Source: Actinomycetota bacterium
GTDB taxonomy: Bacteria > Actinomycetota > Actinomycetes > Nanopelagicales > Nanopelagicaceae
Length of the DNA stretch: 64,000 nt
Direction: 5' to 3'
Assembly (NCBI GenBank): GCA_026393075.1
Contig: JAPLAW010000056.1
Location: 53,973 to 117,972, forward strand
How positions within the stretch are numbered: the first letter of the stretch is position 1; each line of letters opens with the position of its first letter. Shown in pieces: positions 21,790 to 24,616 of the stretch. Under the pieces are notes generated by a model. The model saw only the letters and a list, made by a program, of their open reading frames with translations. It was not told where the DNA came from and searched no databases. The position numbers and the translations under genes are program-made.

Positions 21790-22733
21790 TGTCGCAACTA
21801 GATTTCTCAACGACCTTAGGGAACGCTTGGTTCCCAACTCCGATTTTCACGGCAAGTGGCTGCGCTAGTTCAGGAAAAGAGTTAGCTCAATTCTTTGATC
21901 TACGTGACATGGGTGCGATTGTTACTAAATCAATCATGACTAAACCGCGTGCCGGACGCGCGACTCCACGCATGGCTGAAACTCCAAGCGGCATGTTGAA
22001 TTCGATCGGATTGCAAGGCCCGGGGATTGATGCTTTTTTGGCCAACGATCTCGCATGGTTAGTCGAGCAAAAAGCACGCATTATCGTTTCGATAGCTGGT
22101 GAAACAGCTGAAGAGTTCGCCTCTCTTGCTCGCCGACTAAGAGGGGTAGCCGGAATTTCAGCCCTAGAAGTAAACATCTCTTGCCCGAATGTGGAAAATC
22201 GTGGCATGGTTTTCGCGTGTCATTTGGAATCTGCTCAAACAGTAATTGAAGGAGTACGCCGAACCATCGGCGGAGACTTACCAATCATTGCGAAGTTATC
22301 GCCTGATGTAACAGATATTGTTTCGATTGCTCGCGGTGTTATCGATGCCGGTGCCGATGGGTTAGCGCTAATTAATACTGTTCTGGGCATGGTCATTAAT
22401 CCAAACACCATGCGACCTCATTTGGGCGGTCGTACTGGTGGACTATCTGGCCCAGCGATCCGACCAATAGCGGTCCGTGCCATTTACCAAGTGCACGAAG
22501 CGTTACCAAAAGTTCCGATTCTAGGTATGGGTGGAGTTTCATCGGGCGCCGACGCATTCGAATTAATTCTGGCCGGTGCAAGTGCAGTTTCAGTAGGAAC
22601 CGCATCATTTGGAAACCCGACTGCGATCATGAAAATTCAAAACGAATTACGTCAGATTCTGACCGATAAAGGCTTTAGCTCGCTGCGGGAAGCTGTTGGT
22701 TTCGCACACCGACCAGAAAGCAGCGTGCGATGA
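21789..22733 (+). CDS. pyrD: Dihydroorotate dehydrogenase, class 1B catalytic subunit
   Basis: 314 aa; TASGCASSGKELAQF, GLQGPGI, LEVNISCPNVENRG, GGRTGGLSGPAIRPIAVR, GMGGVSSGADA. Confidence 0.95.
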   Translation: MSQLDFSTTLGNAWFPTPIFTASGCASSGKELAQFFDLRDMGAIVTKSIMTKPRAGRATPRMAETPSGMLNSIGLQGPGIDAFLANDLAWLVEQKARIIVSIAGETAEEFASLARRLRGVAGISALEVNISCPNVENRGMVFACHLESAQTVIEGVRRTIGGDLPIIAKLSPDVTDIVSIARGVIDAGADGLALINTVLGMVINPNTMRPHLGGRTGGLSGPAIRPIAVRAIYQVHEALPKVPILGMGGVSSGADAFELILAGASAVSVGTASFGNPTAIMKIQNELRQILTDKGFSSLREAVGFAHRPESSVR

Positions 22734-23437
22734 AAGCACCAATAATTTTAGCCACTGATACGTCGGATTTGGAAGTTGCCAAGCAATGGGCAAAGTTAGC
22801 AGCTCCACACATCACTGGAATTAAGTTGGGGCTAGAGTTCTTTCTCAACTTTGGCGCTGAAGGAGTTCGTGCGGTCTGCGCTGACCATGAGTTAGATCTT
22901 TTTCTTGATTTAAAACTGCATGACATCCCGAACACAGTTGGGCAGGCCGCGGCAGCAGTAGCTAATTTGAAACCTCGGTTTCTAACCGTTCATGCATCTG
23001 GTGGCCAAGCAATGATTGCCGCAGCTGCCAAGGAACTTTCAGCAACTGAAGTAACTGCGGTAACAATCTTGACCAGCCTGGGTGAGCCAGATTTAGTTGA
23101 AATTGGCTTTCGAGGAAACGCTTTGGATAGCGCAGTTGATCTGGCAAAATTAGCAATTTCTGCAGGCGCTCAAGCAATCGTATGTTCGCCAATGGAGGTC
23201 GCTGCAATTCGCTCCGCTGTCGGAATTGATCCAGCAATAATTACGCCGGGCGTTCGCCCTATTGATTTAACCGCGCCAGCAGATGACCAAGTTCGCACCA
23301 TGACGCCACTGGCCGCAATTACAGCTGGTGCGAGTTATGTGGTTATCGGTCGGCCTATTACTCGATTTTGGAGTCAAGGCGAGGCGGCTTTCAGCGCCAA
23401 CCTGGCACAGATTTGTGAACCACTCTTAGCCCGATAG
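22730..23437 (+). CDS. pyrF: Orotidine 5'-phosphate decarboxylase
   Basis: 235 aa; ILATDTSD, FLDLKLHDIPNTVGQAA, ITPGVRP, YVVIGRPIT. Confidence 0.95.
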   Translation: MKAPIILATDTSDLEVAKQWAKLAAPHITGIKLGLEFFLNFGAEGVRAVCADHELDLFLDLKLHDIPNTVGQAAAAVANLKPRFLTVHASGGQAMIAAAAKELSATEVTAVTILTSLGEPDLVEIGFRGNALDSAVDLAKLAISAGAQAIVCSPMEVAAIRSAVGIDPAIITPGVRPIDLTAPADDQVRTMTPLAAITAGASYVVIGRPITRFWSQGEAAFSANLAQICEPLLAR

Positions 23438-23446
23438 ATTTAGCCC

Positions 23447-24313
23447 ATGCAACCACCGCAACTCTCGCCCGAAGATCGTGCGCGAGCTCTAGCGAAAGCA
23501 GCCGCCTCAAGAAAGCGTCGCGCTGAGGTTAAAGCTCAGATTAAAAGCGGCGAGTATTCACTTATCAGAGTTTTTGAAATTAGTAAGAGTGATGAAGCTG
23601 TAGCCAAGATGCGGGTATTCGAACTTCTAGAATCTATTTCAGGTGTAGGAAAAGTTAGAGCACGATCTGTTATGGAACGTTTAAATATTTCTCCTACCCG
23701 TCGCATCCAAGGCTTAGGTGCAAAACAACTACCGGCTTTGTTACTCGAATTTGCCAGTCCAACTCTCATCGAACGTGGTAAGTTGCTAGTTCTTTCTGGC
23801 CCTGGGGGAGTTGGGAAAAGTACGGTTGCGAAAGAACTTCGCAAAGAAGCAAACTTTTATGTTTCGATAAGTGCTACAACGAGAATTCCGCGACATAATG
23901 AACATGAGGGAGTTGATTACTTCTTCATCAGCGATTCCGAGTTTGAAGCGCGTAAAGCGGCTGGTGATTTTCTGGAATGGGCCGAATTCGCAGGAGCTAA
24001 ATATGCAACGCCTAAATCACAAGTAGAAGATGCTTTAGCCAAGGGTAAAAATGTGCTTCTTGAAATCGATATTGCTGGCGCTGAACAAGTGCGAAAAGTC
24101 AGTACCGAGGCAATCCTGGTATTTCTAGAGCCACCGTCATGGGAAGAGCTAGTAACTCGACTAGAAGCGCGTGGTACGGATTCGGCCGAACGAAGGGCTC
24201 ATCGCCTCGAGTTGGCGCAAGAGGAACTAGCTCACGCCCCTAATTTCGACCATCGGATCACAAATCACTCGGTAACCCAGGTTCTTAGCGTACTGGTATC
24301 CTTGGCCTCTTGA
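23447..24313 (+). CDS. gmk: Fusion protein: mIHF-type integration host factor (N-terminal) + guanylate kinase (C-terminal)
   Basis: Residues ~1-104 resemble mycobacterial mIHF (LSPEDRARALAKAAASRKRRAEVK..VGKVRARSVMERLNISPTRRIQGLGAKQLPALL). The same frame continues into GMK (GKLLVLSGPGGVGKSTVAKEL, SISATTRIPRHNEHEGVDYFF, LEIDIAGAEQVR). Confidence 0.93.
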   Translation: MQPPQLSPEDRARALAKAAASRKRRAEVKAQIKSGEYSLIRVFEISKSDEAVAKMRVFELLESISGVGKVRARSVMERLNISPTRRIQGLGAKQLPALLLEFASPTLIERGKLLVLSGPGGVGKSTVAKELRKEANFYVSISATTRIPRHNEHEGVDYFFISDSEFEARKAAGDFLEWAEFAGAKYATPKSQVEDALAKGKNVLLEIDIAGAEQVRKVSTEAILVFLEPPSWEELVTRLEARGTDSAERRAHRLELAQEELAHAPNFDHRITNHSVTQVLSVLVSLAS

Positions 24314-24367: not shown

Positions 24368-24616
24368 ATGGACGGCATTACAAATCCACCTATCGACGAA
24401 CTTCTCGATAAGGCCGGTTCTAAGTACAGCTTGGTTCTCTACGCTGCAAAGCGTGCGCGTCAGATCAACGCCTATTACTCACAACTTGGCGAAGGTTTAC
24501 TTGAATACGTTGGTCCGCTAGTCGAGACCCACGTTCACGAGAAGCCACTTTCAATCGCACTTCGTGAAATCAATGAAGGTTTATTGACTATCGAGAATCT
24601 CGAGCCAACCGCTTAA
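24368..24616 (+). CDS. rpoZ: DNA-directed RNA polymerase omega subunit
   Basis: 82 aa; [56 protein letters not shown] upstream. Confidence 0.95.

Follow-up and report, generated by a model that had tools for sequence, protein, structure and literature searches.

A single uninterrupted gene in the window (the whole 64,000-nucleotide stretch of DNA analyzed) encodes the nucleoid protein mIHF and guanylate kinase (GMK) as one chain of 288 residues. To judge from sequence comparison, this architecture is fixed and convergently evolved in this order and in Microbacteriaceae-type genomes, with at least three origins. The chain probably represents a bifunctional protein with two working, independently folding domains, derived by loss of the boundary between tightly packed mIHF and gmk genes.

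Domain architecture of the fused gene

The first-pass annotation had described one 288-residue frame holding a complete mIHF followed by a complete GMK. The frame runs from an ATG to a TGA codon without an internal stop, as one gene, and profile searches bore out the description, with both domains scoring above the curated cut-offs. The NCBIfam model actino_IHF (NF041260) matched with 118.8 bits (cut-off, 60; model positions 3-101 of 102), and guanyl_kin (TIGR03263; EC 2.7.4.8) matched with 206.8 bits (cut-off, 160.45; model positions 1-177 of 180). The Pfam families H2TH_5 (residues 32-102) and Guanylate_kin (residues 111-283) were in agreement, and the domain limits of the annotation (about 23447-23755 and 23767-24310) were right to within a few codons (Table 1). 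The solved structures nearest to the N-terminal part by phmmer were Streptomyces coelicolor SCO1480/sIHF (4itq) and mIHF (6tob), while those nearest to the C-terminal part were guanylate kinases. The typing of NF041260 as "equivalog_domain" suggests that its curators were aware of the domain inside longer proteins. An AlphaFold2 model had a pLDDT of 95 overall and 74 in the linker block (residues 101-110), with a pTM of 0.71, consistent with two rigid predicted domains in loose relative orientation joined by a short, less certain linker.

Table 1. Features of the mIHF-GMK fusion gene and its neighbors (positions in the window)
Feature	Position	Strand	Remarks
mIHF-GMK fusion gene, 288 aa	23447..24313	+	single copy in its assembly
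actinobacterial IHF (mIHF/sIHF) domain, residues 4-102	23456..23752	+	NF041260; phmmer to 4itq, 6tob
RRIQGLG motif, residues 85-91; unfused proteins usually RRxRGLG	23699..23719	+	alignment
interdomain linker, residues 103-110	23753..23776	+	lowest pLDDT block; length and sequence vary among relatives
guanylate kinase domain, residues 111-286	23777..24304	+	TIGR03263; fold match M. tuberculosis GMK
P-loop GPGGVGKS, residues 118-125	23798..23821	+	G118, P119, G123, K124 invariant in 71 fused proteins
pyrF, end 9 nt upstream of fusion gene	22730..23437	+	same operon neighborhood
rpoZ (RNA polymerase omega), downstream neighbor	24368..24616	+	then coaBC, metK, priA

The mIHF-type position between pyrF and gmk/rpoZ is conserved for the fusion gene. 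Gene order was similar in annotated Microbacterium and Tsukamurella records, insertions aside; in the Tsukamurella record, a gap of 6 nt separates mihF from gmk, and two genes are inserted after pyrF. Like mIHF of Mycobacterium (Rv1388) and sIHF of Streptomyces (SCO1480), the N-terminal half is a whole domain above the NCBIfam equivalog-domain cut-off within an operon neighborhood of pyrF, mIHF, gmk, rpoZ, coaBC and metK. However, the protein of those genera is free, about 105 residues long and encoded separately from gmk, in support of what the annotation had stated, whereas here the chain runs on into GMK and the third arginine of the motif is a glutamine. The C-terminal half is like bacterial Gmk (M. 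tuberculosis Rv1389; PDB 1znw/1s4q) in its complete domain, P-loop, invariant substrate-site positions and best fold match, but it is preceded by a DNA-binding-type domain, whereas Gmk starts shortly before the P-loop strand.

A search of the gene's own assembly gave no match elsewhere to a second mIHF or a second GMK. Thus, the linkage of mIHF to GMK is an obligatory 1:1 at the gene level, in line with the constrained stoichiometry that the annotation had proposed.

Distribution and origins of the fusion

The source of the gene is a draft assembly of 70 contigs, a setting in which two ordinary genes could look fused if a sequencing or assembly artefact masked a stop or frameshift. Independent assemblies of related organisms, a comparison that the first-pass annotation had proposed, showed neither at the junction. 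In a search of 37 genomes of the genus, the match was uninterrupted in 33 of 33, and the four genomes without a match were 56-82% complete. The same frame was found fused and uninterrupted in 63/63 genomes of the genus drawn from the order, many of them single-contig, as well as in genomes of the family coded f35 and in an annotated public Microbacterium record. Since relatives share the uninterrupted frame, an error at the junction is excluded, and we give an artefact practically no credence.

Across the order, the genes were fused in 127 of the 149 genomes with a match and were two genes in the other 22; these unfused genomes were confined to a few genera (codes g28, g30, g31, g34, g36 and g38). 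The MAG BACL15 and the chromosome of LanE43 are among the named fused records, and their frames were checked. Both families were matched by all 71 fused proteins in a profile search. Four MAGs titled "Bifidobacterium breve" (L023, CAMCXZ010000002.1; L025, CAMCYS010000001.1; L027, CAMDBB010000001.1; L036, CAMDCL010000001.1) carry fusion genes 63-92% identical to the gene studied here; they look like members of this freshwater lineage, and their names are apparently wrong.

A class-wide draw of 395 genomes extended the architecture to 21 of the 22 genomes of f35 and to both genomes (2/2) of genus g91 in family f33. No uninterrupted fusion was present in the other sampled families of the class among the matches listed, and none was seen outside the class among about 137 genomes of other classes in a phylum-wide draw. 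The one candidate from outside the class (G603) turned out to consist of two genes whose frames differ. Two-domain matches in Actinomyces, Schaalia, Scrofimicrobium, Nitriliruptoria and Bacillota MAGs were likewise separate genes, divided by stops, frame changes or a gap of at least 300 nt.

A tblastn search of an f35 protein against plasmid records identified Microbacterium sp. NIBRBAC000506063, in which a 298-aa CDS annotated only as "guanylate kinase" (WP_223172673.1) contains both mIHF (69.6 bits) and GMK (208.9 bits) above their cut-offs. Because this protein shares 74-78% identity with one set of f35 proteins and 61-65% with the others, f35 very probably corresponds to Microbacteriaceae. 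WP_223172673.1 shares with the fusion studied here the two-domain architecture in one CDS; however, its origin appears independent by the tree of its nearest relatives in f35, and its mIHF part is much more diverged and goes unmentioned in the annotation. The Microbacterium record itself (L207; NZ_CP072877.1, 436693-443496) is labeled a plasmid and carries the core genes pyrF (as two CDS), fused mIHF-gmk, rpoZ, metK and priA. Two Fic-family genes separate gmk from rpoZ in this record, which is perhaps a piece of chromosome. Separately, an mIHF homologue (113-121 bits) lies near gmk in four Bacillota/Firmicutes MAGs (L071, L078, L080 and L082); the gene order in L080 (2983-4213) is yicC-like gene, mIHF, remA-like (DUF370) gene, gmk, rpoZ and coaBC. 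Thus, either mIHF is not strictly actinobacterial or these MAGs are misassigned.

A tree built from the joined mIHF and GMK domains, with the linker left out, contained four changes between the fused and separate states in a short search and five in a careful one. The fused groups of the home family, f35 and f33 stood apart in this tree, which argues for at least three origins. A single ancient origin of all fusions was rejected, as constraining them to one clade lowered the log-likelihood by 67 (p-AU, 0.025). Two unfused genera of the home family, g30 and g34, were nested among fused ones (SH-aLRT of 92 for the enclosing fork), indicating that the genes either fused a second time or were split secondarily; the Q or K that these genera have at the third arginine of the mIHF motif (see below) suggests a fused ancestor that later split again.

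Where the home family has unfused genes, mIHF and gmk mostly overlap (ATGA) or lie a few nucleotides apart, and in two such loci (L147 and L148) they share a frame that is interrupted by a single stop. Thus, one small change would be enough for fusion. The linkers of fused proteins varied in length and sequence, suggesting that the join is not preserved for its sequence.

Conservation of the GMK and mIHF halves

Selection on the fusion gene was examined among its closest relatives (at least 87% identity in each half). Pairwise dN was about 0.02-0.09 in both halves, while dS ranged from about 0.26 to saturation; overall dN/dS was about 0.03-0.06 where dS was unsaturated, and both halves were low. 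These values indicate strong purifying selection on both halves.

In the GMK half, the P-loop and TTRxxR region were common to fused proteins and unfused GMKs by alignment. Beyond the P-loop positions of Table 1, residues R146, R149, E152, Y158, E177, Y186, E206, R238, R242 and R253 were invariant in the 71 fused proteins; these invariant positions include conserved GMP-site residues of the family. The top Foldseek matches of this half were the M. tuberculosis GMK structures 1z8f/1znw (E = 6.6e-21). With its kinase motifs intact, the GMK half is a predicted ATP:GMP phosphotransferase.

The mIHF half differs from free forms in one basic residue. The sequence RRxRGLG is a usual, not formally defining, feature of actinobacterial IHF; the fusion protein keeps the first two arginines and has a glutamine at the third, and so departs from it. 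The third arginine was absent from all 98 fused proteins (Q, A or G in 94 and lysine in 4), but 42 of the 45 unfused outgroup proteins retain it; the remaining three, from Bacillota MAGs, have glutamine. Within the family, the position holds Q or K in the unfused genera g30 and g34, a trait that their loci L137-L142, L147, L148 and L150 have in common, and arginine in the other unfused genera. The comparison of fusion with loss of this arginine comprises three supported independent contrasts only. In M. tuberculosis mIHF, the counterparts of the motif arginines are presumably R170, R171 and R173, all three of which are reported to be important for DNA binding. In f35, the mIHF half was strongly diverged, scoring 68-92 bits where free forms reach about 108-144, while GMK scores were not lowered. 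Together, the replaced arginine and the divergence in f35 suggest that DNA binding by the fused mIHF half may be altered or weakened.

The same two features would also be expected if the mIHF half had lost its nucleoid role and become an N-terminal structural or regulatory appendage of GMK, leaving HU to pack the DNA. The nucleoid proteins found beside the fused mIHF made a short list: a single HU-family gene (C8:29856-30122; open frame of 155 aa) is present in the genome, which fits such a division of labor, and a search of the whole genome gave no match to Lsr2. However, the mIHF half is under strong purifying selection in the clade of the fusion gene, R22, R25, G68, G91 and Q94 are invariant in the 71 fused proteins, with G89 nearly so, and the domain still has a net charge of about +8. 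We therefore consider an appendage unlikely, if worth keeping in mind.

Products and meaning of the fusion

A fused gene could still yield two products, a full-length chain and a free GMK, the latter either released by proteolysis or translated from an internal start close to the junction, in which case GMK would not really be tethered. Distinct junctions from the home family (n = 67) and f35 (n = 16) were scanned for ATG, GTG or TTG codons at which free GMK could start. In the home family, 28 of 67 junctions had an in-frame ATG and 17 had a start codon with a Shine-Dalgarno-like stretch, so that some of these relatives may make dual products. However, no candidate start was present at 17 of 67 home-family junctions or at 12 of 16 f35 junctions, indicating that an internal GMK start is not a conserved device. 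In the scanned stretch of the gene's own junction, the only candidate was a TTG that falls within the last mIHF helix and lacks a Shine-Dalgarno motif; a further TTG encodes L113 (23783-23785), the first residue of strand 1 of GMK. Proteolysis may release the two domains, but overall a two-product outcome seems improbable.

The observations at hand are one frame, two complete domains, intact kinase motifs, purifying selection, fixation, repeated origin and the absence of a second copy from the assembly. We favor, as the probable explanation, a bifunctional single chain with two working domains. A small frame or stop change would have removed the boundary between adjacent mIHF and gmk. The N-terminal domain would bind DNA without sequence specificity, as a mobile monomer would, and sIHF has been reported to bind DNA nonspecifically as a monomer (PMC10028186). 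The C-terminal domain would make GDP from GMP and ATP as usual. As the sole source of both functions, the fusion would fix their ratio at 1:1, and DNA binding would tether the kinase to the nucleoid at least transiently. We infer that the full-length chain accumulates uncleaved and that its mIHF half still binds DNA, from which the tethering follows.

In M. tuberculosis, mIHF is essential and ranks within the top ten proteins by abundance (PMC6155035). At that abundance, an equimolar supply of GMK would look wasteful; in organisms with the fusion, either GMK is in excess or mIHF is now a minor player. The simplest reason for the persistence of the fusion is that it is tolerated, or mildly favored in compact genomes, and the evidence does not require a regulatory benefit. 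A repeatedly selected fusion, in which there is a functional benefit from tethering GMK to the nucleoid or from linking the DNA binding of mIHF to the kinase's GMP/GDP/ATP state, would explain the repeated origins, the fixation and why one arginine of the mIHF motif is missing from all fused proteins. If so, the benefit might be, for example, a local supply of GTP for transcription and replication, or a nucleotide-sensing nucleoid protein; we hold this to be a long shot.

Both protein families and the adjacency of mIHF and gmk are already known, and their fusion is new as far as the open-license literature goes, a search of which turned up no description of it. sIHF is treated in a review of 100 actinobacterial genomes, which contains neither the word "guanylate" nor the word "fused". 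When such proteins are annotated simply as "guanylate kinase", the nucleoid protein goes unseen, and surveys can score mIHF as missing.

Guanylate kinase is an essential enzyme (PMC5686395). In small-genome freshwater-type actinobacteria and Microbacteriaceae-type genomes, mIHF and this enzyme are obligatorily one chain. This arrangement offers a clean test case for whether a nucleoid protein must be free and in excess, a question that can be taken up in the laboratory with Microbacterium, which carries the fusion and is culturable.
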